A stretch of 64,000 bases of DNA from Phytoactinopolyspora mesophila (lineage in GTDB: Bacteria > Actinomycetota > Actinomycetes > Jiangellales > Jiangellaceae), in contig NZ_WLZY01000007.1 of assembly GCF_010122465.1 (NCBI RefSeq), forward strand, positions 1 to 64,000, in the 5' to 3' direction. Each line of letters begins with the position of its first letter. The stretch's first letter is position 1. Positions 4,255-63,943 of the stretch are shown here, in pieces. The position numbers were made by a program, and so were the translations under genes. Under the pieces are notes generated by a model. That model made no database searches. It saw only the letters and a list, made by a program, of their open reading frames with translations, and had not been told where the DNA came from.

Positions 4255-4297
4255 CGGACGATCAACTGCCACGGGCTCGATGGTGCCCCTCCCGTCC

Positions 4298-4387
4298 CGG
4301 TGATCGTGAGCGGATTTCGGCTTCACAATCTAGACATTTCTCTCACCGCATCGGCTTGTCGCAGCGCGAATCCGCTCACGATCACCG
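4298..4387. repeat. Palindromic element, GTGATCRTGAG family, copy 1
   Basis: Perfect 19-bp inverted arms (4298-4316 and 4369-4387) read CGGTGATCGTGAGCGGATT and its complement, enclosing a 52-nt AT-richer loop. Two other copies with related arm sequences occur at 27556-27615 and 44395-44452. This copy sits in the 380-bp divergent gap between the esterase and alpha-mannosidase genes. The rest of that gap holds the 21-bp tandem repeat and the two ribosome binding sites, and no gene. Confidence 0.75.
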
Positions 4388-4514
4388 AGATGGCGATCAT
4401 CTTGCCCTGCAGGCAGACTCGTCGAAGGGTGCGCAGTGGCGTGATGAAAGACTCAGGGGAACAATTCATACCGACAACCTGACATTCTCATCTTCCGATG
4501 GAAGGATCCGTCCG

Positions 4515-7553: not shown

Positions 7554-7573
7554 TCCCTCGCCCGCTAGTTCCC

Positions 7574-7671
7574 CGCCTAGATGATCATGTTTGGTGGGTT
7601 TCCTCGCGCCTTACCAGGCCTGCAGGCCTATCGACGCACGGGGAAACCCACCAAACATGATCATCTAGGCG
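7574..7671. repeat. TGATCATGTTTGGTGGGTTT palindromic element, copy A
   Basis: A 98-bp element with perfect 30-bp terminal inverted arms (7574-7603 and 7642-7671). The arms begin CGCCTAGATGATCATGTTTG and continue GTGGGTTTCC. The centre contains CCTGCAGGC. It fills the gap between the convergent ends of the alpha-mannosidase gene (stop 7553) and the AraC gene (stop 7676), so it could act as a bidirectional terminator as well as being a dispersed repeat. Related copies are at 22979-23263 and 52974-53041. Confidence 0.85.
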
Positions 7672-7675
7672 AGGG

Positions 7676-22984: not shown

Positions 22985-23263
22985 TCATGTTTGGTGGGTT
23001 TTCTCTTGCGTCACCATGTCTGCAGGCATGGTGACGCAAGAGAAACACCGGTCACGCAGGCGTACCAACCACGCTCGGTAGCCCGTCCGCGACGACGGCC
23101 CGGCTCCCGGGCGGGGCCTGAGACAGGTGGGCGCGCGCCACGCACGCGCCCACCCTGCCTTGGCTCGCACGAGCGCCCGCCCCGGCGTTACCAGGACTGC
23201 TCGCGCATCAACAGGTCTGCAGGCATAGCAGGGCACGAGGAAACCCACCAAACATGATCATTT
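22979..23263. repeat. TGATCATGTTTGGTGGGTTT palindromic element, copy B (composite, 285 bp)
   Basis: Outer 27-bp inverted arms (22979-23005 and 23237-23263) differ at one position and match copies A and C. Just inside the left arm is a perfect 18-bp hairpin (23001-23018 with 23027-23044, loop TCTGCAGG) like the one in copy C. Near the right arm is a second TCTGCAGGCAT (23215-23225). It therefore looks like two elements flanking about 150 bp of GC-rich filler. Mirror-image 88-codon frames on both strands follow from the inverted ends and are unlikely to be genes. It lies between the convergent ileS and gdh genes and provides the ileS stop codon. Confidence 0.85.
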
Positions 23264-27555: not shown

Positions 27556-27615
27556 CCGGTGGTCGTGAGTGGCTTTGCCTCGCTGTTGCGACGCTGCTCC
27601 GCTCACGACCACCGG
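27556..27615. repeat. Palindromic element, GTGRTCRTGAG family, copy 2
   Basis: Inverted arms CCGGTGGTCGTGAG (27556-27569) and CTCACGACCACCGG (27602-27615) extend to 17 bp with one mismatch, around a loop of about 26 nt. It lies between ftsZ and pgeF, so it would form an RNA hairpin directly after the ftsZ stop and might attenuate read-through into pgeF. Confidence 0.7.
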
Positions 27616-32547: not shown

Positions 32548-33770
32548 GCCGCCGCCTCCCGCCGGCGCAGCCGGCGCTCGCGTTGAGCGGCGAGTGCTTC
32601 CTTGGCTCCTGGCTCTTGCTTCGCCAGGGCCAGCAAGACCCCGACGGCGGCCACCGTCGCCACGATCGACGCTCCTCCGTACGAGACAAGTGGAAGCGGG
32701 ACGCCAACCACTGGAAACACCGCCAACACCATGCCTAGATTGATCACGGTCTGCACCATGAACCAGCCGGTGATACCGGCCGCTGCCAACCGGACGAATG
32801 TGTCTTTCGTCCGCATCGCGATGCGCAGGCCAGCATAGCCGAAAGCCAGGAAGAGCACGATGACCATCAGGGAGCCGGGCAGTCCGAGCTCTTCACCGAG
32901 GATGGCGAAGATGAAGTCCGTGTGCCGCTCCGGCAACGTTCCCCACTTCTGTGTGCTGGCACCCAGGCCGGTTCCCCACCAGCCGCCGTTGGCGAAGGCG
33001 AATATCGAGTTCGCTGCCTGATACCCGGTGTTGGCGTAGTCGGCGAACGGGTCGAGGAATCCCAGGACTCGCTGAGTCCGGTAGCCCGTGGAGAAAATGA
33101 AATACACGCCTAGGACGCTCACACCTCCGACGGCAAGACCGAACAGCCAGGTCGGCACCCCCAGCACCCACAGCATGCTGAGCAGGATCAGCACCATGAC
33201 CACCGACGTGCCCATGTCGCCTTGCCCGATCGTCAGTCCGATGATGATCAGCGACACCGGCGCGACCGGGATCAGCAGCTGCCGCCATTGGCGCACGAGC
33301 GCGCCTTTGTTGGCGAAGACGTGGGCCACCCAGACGATCAGCGCCAGCTTGGCCGCCTCCGAGGGCTGCAATAGGAACGGCCCGCCGAAATCCAGCCAGT
33401 TGCGGCTGCCGCCGCGAACAACGCCCAAACCCGGGATGTAGGTCAGCGCCAGGAGGCCGATGGCGACAATGACCAGCAATAACGCCATCGCCCGCAGGAC
33501 GCGGATCGGCATCCGAGTGATCAGCCACGCGATGGGCAGCGCCACCAGGACCCAGACCAGCTGCCGGGTGAAGTAGTAAGCAGGATGCCCGAATTGCGTC
33601 GTGGACATATAGGTGGTGGATGAGAACACCATCACCAGGCCGAGCAGCAGAAGCAGACCAGCCGATCCGAGAATGAGGTAGTACGAGGCCAGCGGGCGAC
33701 GCAGGAACCTGCTCAACGCCGCCCGGCCGGACCCCGGCGTCCGGACAGGCCCGGTTTCAGTCGCTGCCAT
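32544..33770 (-). CDS. ftsW: SEDS-family peptidoglycan polymerase FtsW
   Basis: A polytopic SEDS glycosyltransferase that polymerises lipid II at the septum with FtsI. It has 408 residues from ATG 33770; the frame runs 44 codons further upstream into murD but that part is not FtsW-like. About ten transmembrane helices are visible. Family motifs include [21 protein letters not shown] near residue 155 and the C-terminal [19 protein letters not shown]. The chosen start overlaps murD by 14 bp. Confidence 0.95.
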
Positions 33771-35208
33771 AGCGGCGCACCGCCGCCGCGAAAGCCTCTC
33801 CGCGACTGGCGTAATTGACGAACATGTCCATGGACGCGCACGCGGGTGCAAGTAGCACGGTGTCTCCCGCCTGGGCGGCTCCGGCCGCCGCCTGCACTGC
33901 ACGGTCCATAGCCATATTGTCAGTGTCAGGGAGCTCGATCACCGGCACATTCGGCGCGTGTCGCTCGAGTGCCTCCCTGATCAGGTGCCGATCCGCGCCG
34001 ATCAGCACGGCGGTCCGCAGGCGCTCGCGGGAGCCGATCACGAGATCATCGAACTCCGCGCCCTTGGCCAGCCCGCCGGCGATCCACACGACAGATTCGT
34101 ACGCGCCCAACGATGCGGCCGCGGCATGGGGGTTGGTCGCTTTGGAGTCGTCCACGTAGGCGACATCACCCAGGACCGCGACCTCCGAGGCCCGATGCGG
34201 GTCCGGGGTGTAGTGGCGAAGCCCGTCGCGCACCGCGACGGTGGGCACGCCGATGGAGCGGGCGAGGGCAGCGGCGGCCAGTGCATTGGTGATGTTGTGC
34301 GGGGCAGCCGGGTGGATGTCGGCGACGGTGGCCAGCTCCGCGGCCGACGTCTGCCGCTCGGCGATGAACGCTCGGTCCACCAGCACGTCGTCGACCAGCC
34401 CGAGCATGCCGACTCCGGGTACACCGAGCGTGACCCCGATGGCCCGGGCTCCGTCGGCGACGTCGGCGTCTCGGACCAGTTGCTCGGTGACTGGGTCGGC
34501 GAGGTTGTAGACGCAGGCTGACTCGACACCCTGGTAGATGCGGCCCTTGTCCGCGGCGTACGCCTCGAATGAGCCGTGCCAGTCCAGATGGTCCGGTGCC
34601 ACGTTGAGCACGGCCGCCGAACGGGCCGCCAGAGTGTGAGTCCAGTGCAGCTGGAAACTCGAGAGTTCGACGGCGAGCACATCGTGACCGGCTGGATCGA
34701 GCACGGCGGAGACGATGGGATCACCGACGTTGCCCGTGGCTCCGACCCGTAACCCGGACGCCCGCAGGATCGACGCCAGCATGCGAAGCGTGGTGGTTTT
34801 GCCGTTGGTGCCGGTCAGAACCAGCCACGGGGTAGCCGGATCGCGCAGCCGCCACGCCAGCTCCACCTCTCCCCAGATCGGTATGCTCGACGCGGCCGCC
34901 GCCTCGAGTAGTGGTGCCGTGGGACGCCAGCCCGGCGATGTCACGACCAGCTGCACGCCAGGTGGGAGGGTGGAGGTAGAGCCGGGGCCGAGCCGGGTAG
35001 TCGCCCCGAGGATCTCGAGGATCTTCGCTCTCTCGCGCTCGCTGTCGCCATCACGCTCGTCGACGACGCTCACCTGTGCGCCCAGCTGAACCAGCGCGTC
35101 GGCCGCGGCAAACCCGGACACACCAATACCGGCCACGAGGACGGACAGCTCCGGCCAAGGGCTCTCCCGCTCCGCGACGTCCAACCAGTCAGGCACGCTC
35201 ACACCCAC
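33757..35208 (-). CDS. murD: UDP-N-acetylmuramoyl-L-alanine--D-glutamate ligase
   Basis: The Mur ligase that adds D-Glu, with 483 residues. It has an N-terminal Rossmann domain (VLVAGIGVSGFAAADALVQLG), the central P-loop VLTGTNGKTTTLRML near residue 135, ELSSFQLHWTHTL near 182, and the C-terminal VDDSKATNPHAAAASLGAY motif near 355. The GTG start at 35208 follows GGAAGGATGGCGGT. A 431-bp palindrome-rich gap separates it from mraY, which is unusual because these genes are normally tightly packed. Confidence 0.96.
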   Translation of the reverse strand: MGVSVPDWLDVAERESPWPELSVLVAGIGVSGFAAADALVQLGAQVSVVDERDGDSERERAKILEILGATTRLGPGSTSTLPPGVQLVVTSPGWRPTAPLLEAAAASSIPIWGEVELAWRLRDPATPWLVLTGTNGKTTTLRMLASILRASGLRVGATGNVGDPIVSAVLDPAGHDVLAVELSSFQLHWTHTLAARSAAVLNVAPDHLDWHGSFEAYAADKGRIYQGVESACVYNLADPVTEQLVRDADVADGARAIGVTLGVPGVGMLGLVDDVLVDRAFIAERQTSAAELATVADIHPAAPHNITNALAAAALARSIGVPTVAVRDGLRHYTPDPHRASEVAVLGDVAYVDDSKATNPHAAAASLGAYESVVWIAGGLAKGAEFDDLVIGSRERLRTAVLIGADRHLIREALERHAPNVPVIELPDTDNMAMDRAVQAAAGAAQAGDTVLLAPACASMDMFVNYASRGEAFAAAVRRYGSD

Positions 35209-35256
35209 ACCGCCATCCTTCCCGTGACAGACAACGACCTATTCATACCGCAGACC

Positions 35257-35324
35257 CATGGCACGTTGGGTACACGCGATTCTGGCTGGCAAGCCGCTTC
35301 CCAACGTGTATCCAACGTGCCATG
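35257..35324. repeat. Palindrome in the mraY-murD gap
   Basis: A 20-bp arm CATGGCACGTTGGGTACACG (35257-35276) pairs with its near-perfect complement (35305-35324, one mismatch) around a 28-nt loop. It does not share the core of the neighbouring variable-arm element. It is part of the 35209-35639 stretch, which contains only palindromic DNA and no gene. Confidence 0.75.
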
Positions 35325-35390
35325 CCCCGAACCGTGCCGGGCGAGGCGCGGACCGGCACCAGCTGAGCAGAGGGCGGACGGGAGTGGTGC

Positions 35391-35409
35391 CCCGGCCATG
35401 GTGCGGACC
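35391..35409. repeat. Left-half remnant of the variable-arm element
   Basis: CCCGGCCATGGTGCGGAC matches CCCGGCCTTGGTGCGGAC at the arm/core boundary of the full copy at 35444-35555 (one difference), then diverges. It looks like a decayed left half with no right arm nearby. Confidence 0.45.
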
Positions 35410-35443
35410 GATCGTCCGTGGAAACCGGCGCACAACAAGTAGA

Positions 35444-35555
35444 GCGGGGAATGAGCGGAAGGAATCTCCCGGCCTTGGTGCGGACGGGCATCGGCGAGCG
35501 AGGAACGAGCGAGTCCGCGGGCGGGGCCGGGAGATTCCTTCCGCTCATTCCCCGC
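35444..35555. repeat. Variable-arm palindromic element, full copy D1
   Basis: Perfect 31-bp inverted arms (35444-35474 and 35525-35555; arm starts GCGGGGAATGAGCGGAAGG) flank exactly 50 nt of core. The last 40 nt of the core match copy D2 at 63866-63915 with one difference (core contains GGCATCGGCGAGCGAGGAAC and GCGAGTCCGCGGGCGG), yet the arms of D1 and D2 are unrelated. The core itself repeats CGAGCGAG. It lies between mraY and murD in the dcw cluster. Confidence 0.9.
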
Positions 35556-35573
35556 GGGCTTAACGATGGAATC

Positions 35574-35600
35574 AACGAGCGAGTCCGCGGGCGAGGCCGG
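35574..35600. repeat. Right-half remnant of the variable-arm element (D4)
   Basis: AACGAGCGAGTCCGCGGGCGA followed by GGCCGG reproduces the right half of the core and the arm junction, 19 bp beyond D1. The sequence after it (AAATCTCTTCCCATCC) would be a right arm but has no complement nearby, so the element is incomplete. Confidence 0.7.
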
Positions 35601-35639
35601 AAATCTCTTCCCATCCCTCCCACACTCCCCTGTCACGAC

Positions 35640-36701
35640 TCACAGCGTCGCGACCCACTCCGCGTAGAACAGCCCCACGCCGGCCATGACGAAAAGCCCG
35701 GCGATGATCCAGAACCGGATCACAATCGTCACTTCCGCCCAGCCTTTGAGCTCGAAGTGGTGTTGTAGCGGCGCCATTCGGAACAGCCGTTTACCGCTGG
35801 AGAGTTTGAACCAGGCCACTTGCAGGATCACCGAGAGGGTGATGATGGCGAACAGCCCGCCGAGGACGACGAGCAGCAGTTCGGTACGGCTCATGATGGC
35901 GAGCCCGGCCAGGGCGCCGCCCAGGGCGAGTGAGCCGGTGTCGCCCATAAATATCTTGGCTGGCGCCGCGTTCCACCAGAGGAAGCCGAAGCATGCGCCC
36001 ATCAGCGCAGCGGCAACGACGGCGAGGTCATGTGGGTCGCGGACTTCGTAGCAGCCGGGTCCCGGCGACACGCTGCAGCTCTGGTTGAACTGCCAGATAC
36101 TGATCAGGGTGTAGGCACCGAAGACCATCACCGATGCGCCGGTGGCGAGTCCGTCCAGACCATCGGTGAGGTTGACCGCGTTCGAGGTGCCCGACACCAT
36201 CAGCAGGGCCCAGATGACAAACGCGGCGGCGGGAAGGACCACTGGCGTGTCGCGGAGGAACGAAATCGCCTCGGAGCCTGGGGTGTAGCCCTGCTCGTTC
36301 GGGAAGTTCAGCGCCATGATGCCGAAGGCGACGGCCACGCCGATCTGGCCGGCCATCTTCGCCCGGCTGCGGAGTCCGAGGCTGCGCTGTTTGGAGATCT
36401 TGATGTAGTCGTCCAGGAAGCCGACCAGACCAAGTCCTACCAGCAGAAAGAGGACGAGAAGCCCGGACGCGCTCGGGGCGGACGGCCGCACGAGGTGTGC
36501 TAGCGCATATCCCGCGACCGCGGCGATGATGATGACCGCGCCGCCCATTGTGGGCGTGCCCCGCTTGGTGTGATGGCTGGTGGGGCCGTCGTCTCTGATG
36601 AGCTGGCCGTAGCCGCGCTTGACCAGAACCCGGATCGCGACAGGCGTGCCGAGAATCGAAATGACCACGGCGACGAGGCCGGCCGTGAGGATCGAGATCA
36701 C
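35640..36701 (-). CDS. mraY: Phospho-N-acetylmuramoyl-pentapeptide-transferase
   Basis: An integral membrane enzyme of 353 residues with about ten helices. It transfers phospho-MurNAc-pentapeptide to undecaprenyl phosphate, making lipid I. Catalytic loops are readable: [11 protein letters not shown] near residue 47, [16 protein letters not shown] near 95, [12 protein letters not shown] near 178, and the Mg-binding [14 protein letters not shown] with the nearby [12 protein letters not shown]. The GTG start overlaps the murF stop (GTGA). Confidence 0.96.
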
Positions 36702-43608: not shown

Positions 43609-43835
43609 GGTCGCCTCCTCACTGGCTCTGCTTCCCGGCAGGGAGTTTCTTGGTCCCGGTTCCTTCGCTCTGGCTCGACCGCTCATGCGACCAGGTCCCC
43701 GCCCGCTCGATTTCGTCGGTACTGCCTGGCACCGGGGAAGGTGCGCCAGGGAGTTGTGAGCGGGCCGGAGACCTCGTCGCACGAACTGAATGGGCCTGAA
43801 CGGCTCGGTGACGGCTCGAGGCAAGTGCGCGGCCA

Positions 43836-52977: not shown

Positions 52978-53041
52978 ATGATCATGTTTGGTGGGTTTTC
53001 TCGTGCGTCACCACGCCTGCAGACATGGTGACGCACGAGAA
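52974..53041. repeat. TGATCATGTTTGGTGGGTTT element, copy C (one-sided)
   Basis: CTAGATGATCATGTTTGGTG and the following GGTTTTCTC match the left arm of copies A and B. An 18-bp hairpin with one mismatch follows (52998-53015 with 53024-53041, loop CCTGCAGA), nearly the same as the inner hairpin of B. The right outer arm is absent, so it is truncated. It lies between the convergent SpeE-like and DUF4091 genes and supplies the TAG stop at 52975-52977. Confidence 0.85.
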
Positions 53042-62982: not shown

Positions 62983-63732
62983 GTGGCCAGGCAAGGCAGC
63001 AAGGAACAAGGGTCGGGCAAACAGACCACTGCGCGGGGCGCCTCTATTCATCAGTTTCCGGACCCCACCACGGGCGGCAGGCCCATCCTCACGCCGCGCC
63101 AGTGGAAGGTGCTCGAGGTCATCCGTGACTCGGTCGAGCGACGGGGTTACCCGCCGAGCATGCGAGAGATCGGCGAGGCAGCCGGCCTGGCCAGTCCGTC
63201 CAGCGTCTCGCACCAACTCACCGTCTTGGAAGCCAAGGGGTACATCCGCAGAGATCCGCACCGGCCCCGCGCGCTCGAGGTACTCGCCCCGCCGCCCGCG
63301 GAGGACGGCGGTGTTGATGCCGAAGCACCGATCGCCGCAGATGAGCCGTCGCTTCCAACCCCGTCGTACGTGCCGCTCGTCGGCCGCATCGCCGCCGGAG
63401 GTCCGGTCCTCGCCGAGCAAGCTGTTGAAGACGTCTTCCCGCTCCCCCGTGAGCTGGTCGGTGAAGGCAACCTGTTCATGCTGAACGTCACCGGCGATTC
63501 GATGCTCGATGCCGCCATTTGTGATGGCGACTGGGTCGTCGTACGTCAGCAAGATGTGGCAGAGAACGGCGAGATCGTCGCAGCCATGCTCGACGGAGAA
63601 GCCACGGTGAAAACGTACAAGCAACGTGATGGCCACGTTTGGCTACTGCCTCACAATGACTCGTACGAGCCGATTCCTGGTGACTCTGCCACCATCCTCG
63701 GTCGCGTCGTAGCCGTAATGCGCCGCATCTAG
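62983..63732 (+). CDS. lexA: SOS response repressor LexA
   Basis: A self-cleaving repressor of 249 residues. A 30-residue leader is followed by the winged helix ([41 protein letters not shown]). The Ala-Gly cleavage site is in [12 protein letters not shown] near residue 138, the catalytic Ser in [10 protein letters not shown] near 171, and the Lys in [10 protein letters not shown] near 208. GTG 62983 follows GGAGGTAGCGTC. It is autoregulated through SOS box 2 and shares the divergent region with the LysM gene. Confidence 0.97.
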
Positions 63733-63742
63733 CTACTCCGAG

Positions 63743-63800
63743 ACCGCCGGTCAGGGCTCGGGCGGGCATCGGCGAGCGAGGAACAAGCGAGTCCGCGGGC
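63743..63800. repeat. Variable-arm element, partial copy D3
   Basis: A stretch of 54 bp (63747-63800) is identical to 63860-63913 in D2, i.e. CCGGTC plus 48 nt of core. It then switches to an unrelated right side (AGACCCTTGCTCCC) that does not pair with the left side. It starts 14 bp after the lexA stop codon. Confidence 0.85.
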
Positions 63801-63837: not shown

Positions 63838-63943
63838 ACACAGCGTGCATCCAGCACCACCGGTCAGGGCTCGGGCGGGCATCGGCGAGCGAGGAACAAG
63901 CGAGTCCGCGGGCGGGACCGGTGGTGCTGGATGCACGCTGTGT
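63838..63943. repeat. Variable-arm palindromic element, full copy D2
   Basis: Perfect 28-bp arms (63838-63865 and 63916-63943; arm starts ACACAGCGTGCATCCAGCACC) flank a core of exactly 50 nt. The core shares 39 of its last 40 nt with D1 (35475-35524), while the arms are unrelated to those of D1. With D3 it forms a direct tandem at 113-bp spacing. No gene is supported from 63733 to 64000. Confidence 0.9.

Follow-up and report, generated by a model that had tools for sequence, protein, structure and literature searches.

A dispersed palindromic element of the Jiangellaceae with a conserved core and copy-specific arms

Two palindromes beside mraY and lexA

The window analysed in this work, a 64,000-nt stretch of the Phytoactinopolyspora mesophila genome, contains two full copies of a palindromic element that we term the D family. 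The first, D1, lies inside the cell-wall (dcw) cluster, between a murD-like Mur ligase gene (33757–35208, - strand) and mraY (35640–36701, - strand), whose stop codon is 84 nt from the D1 right arm. D1 comprises a 31-nt left (5′) arm (35444–35474, + strand), a 50-nt conserved core (35475–35524, + strand) and a 31-nt right (3′) arm (35525–35555, + strand), the left arm being the perfect reverse complement of the right. The core, which contains CGAGCGAG-GAA-CGAGCGAG, is repeated at about 25–29 places in this genome. D2 follows the 3′ end of lexA (62983–63732, + strand); on its other side, past the end of the window, is a DinG-like helicase gene in convergent orientation. It has the same architecture, with a 28-nt left arm (63838–63865, + strand), a 50-nt core (63866–63915, + strand) and a 28-nt right arm (63916–63943, + strand) that is again the perfect reverse complement of the left.

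The lengths and perfect pairing of the arms (31 and 28 bp), the 50-nt cores and the single difference between the last 40 nt of these cores are exactly as the original prediction described them; over all 50 positions, the cores differ at 6. The arms of D1 and D2 are unrelated to each other except for an inner CCGG(C/T)C, and both left arms are unique in the genome: across this genome and the four congeners checked, the arm sequences were found at their own two places only. The arm-core arrangement is far beyond chance, with folding z-scores of about -10, 0 of 200 shuffles folding as well, and 0 expected occurrences of the core motif in shuffled windows.

Each element is accompanied by an incomplete relative. 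Directly after D1 lies a half copy of the family (CGAGCGAGTCCGCGGGCGAGGCCGG, 35576–35600, + strand) without arms, and beside D2 lies a 54-nt partial copy (63747–63800, + strand), a tandem partial duplicate that is identical to D2 positions 63860–63913 and also lacks complementary arms. The original prediction was right to count D1 and D2 as two full copies, but it missed these two armless ones. The mraY–murD spacer that houses D1 (35203–35639) is ~435 bp long here and near zero in the congener G004; because this whole spacer is extra relative to such congeners, the D1 site cannot tell which arm came first. The D2 spacer is too diverged for orthologous comparison in the nearest named relatives. 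In addition to D1 and the half copy, the mraY–murD spacer holds another repeat (35257–35326) that recurs at G000:C13:4815, C1:454277 and C1:1150185.

Other structured sequences are present in the window. Long palindromes at 23000–23045 and 52998–53041 have GGTGGGTTTTCTC(T/G)TGCGTCACCA in common and differ by a compensated change (CTCTTGC/GCAAGAG versus CTCGTGC/GCACGAG); the D family may not be alone in having arms that co-vary. Hairpins at 4292–4393, with a 52-nt loop, and 27556–27615 share GTG(A/G)TCGTGAG(C/T)GG arms and are possibly another palindromic family. A very long intergenic inverted repeat (52-nt arms at 85%, no loop) occupies 7571–7674, and an mraW cis-regulatory RNA (RF01746) lies at 43673–43790 on the - strand.

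Copies, arms and gene context in the Jiangellaceae

Within the 6.5-Mb genome that contains the window, 20 places match a 30-nt core with up to 3 mismatches. Among the named relatives searched, Phytoactinopolyspora alkaliphila is the nearest to this genome, with 90% identity in a long conserved protein, which places it in the Jiangellaceae. We catalogued at least 29 copies among the loci examined. Long complementary arms flank 20 of the 29, and in 12 of the 20 these arms are perfect and at least 18 bp long; the other 9 copies are mostly tandem, partial or decayed. The variable-arm model first put forward for D1 and D2 withstands the refuting conditions set in the original prediction: most copies have complementary flanks and there are not two arm sequences common to all. 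We examined pairing over the 20 core-proximal arm nucleotides in the 63 copies whose arms reach 20 nt or more. On average, 19.1 of these positions pair with the copy's own partner arm, compared with 8.9 when matched to the arms of other copies (19.4 and 7.7, respectively, in the window's genome alone).

Arm variation starts almost at the core edge in the window's genome. In a Jiangella-like genus (genus labels of relatives, such as this one, are inferred), the repeated unit takes in about 12 bp of each arm, which are fairly constant, and the outer arm is variable. Some non-orthologous copies have common arms (the CCGGCAAATGGAGTCTCTCC and GCCGGTGGGTGGGG groups), and tandem copies at C7:156365–156480 repeat the left arm (L-core-L-core-R), suggesting that, in some cases at least, duplication takes the arms with it. 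The most constant part of the element is the CGAGCGAG..CGAGCGAG direct repeat, which would be compatible with a putative recognition site. Because copies were located through the core, core constancy is partly a product of ascertainment; orthologues located through their flanks also retain the core. The comparison used one genome per species, phylogeny judged from sequence identity alone, and gene calls from a simple home-made caller.

The D family is present throughout the Jiangellaceae. Related cores extend to further genera, being numerous in G005 and G019 and scarce or missing in G010, G017 and G002. An 18-nt motif, GAGCGAGGNACGAGCGAG, occurs more widely: of 394 genomes sampled across the class, other families included, 90 carry it, and a reversed-pattern control is far lower. 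In other actinobacterial families this motif is often found just after stop codons. The sequences around it differ between families, such that these repeats have the 18-nt motif in common with the D family and differ from it in their surroundings; no long matched arms were seen in the loci examined outside the Jiangellaceae. In genome G102, from another family, GAGCGAGGAACGAGCGAG often lies within about 12 nt after a stop codon (L336–L364 and other class-level loci). Phage and plasmid collections yielded no full-length relatives, only three weak partial plasmid matches, and a literature search for the core sequence found no paper containing it.

Nearly all copies are intergenic, with one (site 198, described below) inside an open reading frame. 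A gene 3′ end faces 50 of 61 non-orthologous copies, at a median distance of 19 nt, and copies are found in 19 convergent gaps versus 1 divergent gap. The elements show no preferred orientation relative to genes (15 '>>' versus 18 '<<').

The two strands of the element are not equivalent. Left arms are G-rich in 57 of 65 copies, and the 5′ arm is G- and T-rich: G-C stem pairs outnumber C-G pairs (769 versus 445), as T-A pairs do A-T pairs (221 versus 139). The flanks of the copies have no G/C skew and more A than T. Arm mismatches are likewise biased, with 27 G.T on the core strand versus 8 A.C, the latter corresponding to G.T on the other strand (p = 0.002; 26 versus 8 in the non-orthologous set, p = 0.003). 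Even in '<E<' contexts, in which the neighbouring mRNA carries the other strand, we observed 6 G.T and 0 A.C on the core strand, and the core strand forms the more stable fold in 67 of 67 elements tested. If pairing counted only in duplex DNA, or only in transcripts of the adjacent gene, the G.T preference would not be expected to stay with the core strand whatever the gene direction. Mutation could account for part of this strand bias.

Evolution at orthologous and empty sites

We compared 13 copies from G019 with the matching places in related species of the Jiangella-like genus, restricting the count of changes to sites alignable without guessing. This left out sites 200 and 201, whose arms are not so alignable, and site 195, at which the G018 copy is decaying. 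Counted over species pairs, of which related ones repeat some events, there are 25 compensated changes and 2 other doubles, alongside 12 changes confined to one side; independent sides would be expected to give 3.6 doubles. By our tally, the distinct compensated events number 14, including 8 of transversion type and 1 symmetric 1-nt deletion, and several of the compensated changes are adjacent. The transversion-type and symmetric-deletion events cannot pass through a G.U intermediate.

These in-register changes can be followed in individual arms, which read GGCCGGTGTCC in G019 and G013, GGCCGGTGTC in G018, where one base is gone from both arms, and GGCCGGTGGGC in G016. At site 204, the arms read GTGGGTGGGGGAT, GTGGGGAGGGGAC and GTGGGAGGGGGAT, each perfectly matched. 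The core at site 2 differs between species at 2–4 of 48 positions. Pairing is thus maintained while sequence changes, as had been proposed from D1 and D2: orthologous copies change both arms in register and the core stays. Ordinary double substitutions, if pairing is selected for, could also give rise to such changes. Some orthologous copies decay without correction, as at site 202 with its 8 one-sided changes.

The element is also gained and lost, being present in some species and absent in others at matching sites. The copy at site 2 is lost in G017, and G009 has palindromes without a core at sites 201 and 203, where its relatives carry the element. The sequences of these palindromes are consistent with deletion of the core between the GCCGGC inner arms.

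Sites with and without the element bear on the suggestion that one arm pre-exists in the host. At site 198 (L198, G019:C1:6460361-6464401), the element forms a 99-bp in-frame insertion in a conserved reading frame that probably encodes a membrane protein, and relatives show in-frame size differences (+24 in G009, +36 in G014). Its outer right arm aligns with host codons that species lacking the element also have, and its left arm complements this outer right arm. This is the only clear case of a pre-existing arm; at site 196, the empty loci have only about five nt of one arm. With its in-frame insertion in a coding gene and in-frame remnants in relatives, the site 198 copy resembles Rickettsia palindromic elements. 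Unlike those elements, nearly all D copies are intergenic and their arms are not conserved.

At site 205, the element is present in G019 and G009 only. An 11-nt direct repeat, TTC[A/T]GCGCCGG (one mismatch in G009), borders it on both sides, and the empty loci have a single copy of this sequence. No other insertion has a convincing direct repeat (site 196 shows one of 7 nt); over all copies, direct repeats indicative of target-site duplication are not enriched relative to shuffled flanks. We found no donor with the same outer arms for the site 205 copy, whose other matches cover mostly the core and about 12 nt of each arm. A separate, conserved ordinary hairpin lies beside the element at this site.

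Explanations for arms that vary but stay matched

Similar to REP sequences and REPINs, the D family is short, dispersed, mainly extragenic and hairpin-forming, and compensatory hairpin changes have been reported in REPIN spacers (PMC3116915). In REPINs, however, it is the outer ends that are conserved and the middle that varies, whereas the D family has a conserved middle and variable outer arms. REP/REPIN sequences have conserved palindromic ends (GTAG/CGTC-tagged); in the D family the ends, judged by their overall conservation, are the variable part. Of the linked recombinases that the original prediction suggested looking for, Y1/RAYT transposases (PF01797) were sought in 22 genomes of the family and none has one, with control genomes positive. 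This absence and the reversal of conserved and variable parts rule out a REPIN/RAYT system. The D family also resembles MITEs in being small, non-coding, dispersed, palindromic and present or absent between species, but it has no constant terminal inverted repeats, and target duplications do not appear to be general.

We favor, with a probability of roughly 0.5, the reading that the D family is a REP-like interspersed palindromic element of the Jiangellaceae, about 90–120 bp long, with a conserved core and arms that are rewritten from each other. The identity of the element would reside in the core of about 47–50 nt at the head of the hairpin, and the arms would need only be complementary. Its functional form would be the folded strand reading GAGCGAGGAACGAGCGAG, as single-stranded DNA or RNA. 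Because they pair, the arms could serve a polymerase as templates for each other (intrastrand template switching), so that whatever changes in one would be copied to its partner, and complementarity could extend into flanking host DNA. Over time, each copy would acquire its own, still perfect, arms. The core would be kept either by selection or by the agent of spread, which would tend to place, or leave, the element near gene 3′ ends.

Intrastrand template switching with the 5′ base as template is predicted to yield G-C over C-G and T-A over A-T pairs (Monttinen & Loytynoja 2022, PMC8794818). The stem composition of the D family (769:445 and 221:139) agrees with this prediction. The excess of paired changes, which include adjacent, transversion-type and indel events, is also in line with template switching. 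Like the template-switch hairpins described in that work, D-family stems are perfect and show paired changes together with the G-C and T-A excess. Those hairpins lie in rRNA and microRNA genes, whereas the D family is a dispersed bacterial repeat with 18–33 bp arms and a fixed core. It is mainly the fit of the stem-pair asymmetry to the prediction (PMC8794818) that leads us to prefer template-directed rewriting over plain compensatory substitution.

A possible, if less favored, alternative is a structured RNA or single-strand element in which the stems would have changed by ordinary compensatory substitution under selection, with no need for template switching, and the core would serve as a conserved loop to which a protein or RNA binds. 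The one-strand G.T wobble (27:8) is a classic sign of selection for pairing on a single-stranded molecule, and the in-register arm changes, the strongly conserved loop and the position of the majority of copies near gene 3′ ends would all be in keeping with such an element. Perfect stems of 20–33 bp with few wobbles are, however, unusual for selected RNA stems, and transversion-type changes together with a symmetric deletion make up most of the distinct compensated events, several of which are adjacent. Moreover, the neutral orientation of the element means that the preferred strand is not consistently in the mRNA, and Rfam covariance models gave no match at D1, D2 or the other copies searched.

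It is improbable that the arms are made once per insertion, with the core entering, its end folding back and adjacent host DNA being copied. Such snap-back would account for D1 and D2 arms that are found nowhere else in the genome, for the pre-existing outer right arm at site 198, and for the limited match of the site 205 copy to other copies. It is at odds with in-register arm changes long after insertion, with arms common to some non-orthologous copies (CCGGCAAATGGAGTCTCTCC and GCCGGTGGGTGGGG groups), with site 196, where the empty loci hold so little of one arm, and with the G-richness of left arms, which is not expected of random host DNA. The original prediction had offered two options, a mobile core with fold-back duplication around it and selection favoring a hairpin, and we see parts of both. 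Fold-back is partly supported by the site 198 left arm, which complements pre-existing host DNA. It applies only in part, because in the Jiangella-like genus some 12 bp of each arm belong to the repeated unit, some non-orthologous copies have arms in common and arms change after insertion, so that they are not simply made fresh each time.

Transcription terminators, or mRNA 3′-end stabilisers of neighbouring genes, with a constant loop are a distinctly unlikely explanation. As with intrinsic terminators, D-family hairpins lie close to gene 3′ ends, and their proximity to these ends and excess in convergent gaps speak for such a role. Yet T-rich tracts follow only 3 of 68 elements on the core strand and 13 of 68 on the other strand, so the U-tract expected after a terminator hairpin is mostly absent. 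Wobble and stability favor one strand irrespective of gene direction, D1 lies inside the mraY–murD operon, one copy is inside an open reading frame, and site 205 already has its own conserved hairpin. The rarity of T-tracts and the orientation neutrality lead us to reject termination as the sole function, and a simple terminator role is unlikely. Finally, insertion of the core into the loops of pre-existing host hairpins, with both arms older than the core, would account for variable but matched arms but is very improbable given that the empty orthologous sites 196, 198 and 205 have no matching hairpin and that the arm-only palindromes of G009 (201 and 203) look like core deletions between GCCGGC repeats.

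Returning to the reading in which arms are rewritten from each other around a conserved core, we tentatively propose a fuller version: a selected or mobile core that may spread by machinery other than Y1/RAYT transposases, and whose arms may be continually rewritten by hairpin-templated synthesis that prefers one strand and one direction and also lengthens them into host DNA. The D family also shows that repeats can escape searches built around conserved inverted ends. To explain how long stems can change in sequence and yet remain perfectly paired, template switching has been put forward on indirect evidence from rRNA and microRNA genes (PMC8794818). The D family provides dozens of independent natural hairpins with one constant core, making arm evolution measurable per copy and per species. 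It can also reveal on which strand and in which direction correction runs, and it offers a natural test bed for how hairpin arms are kept matched.
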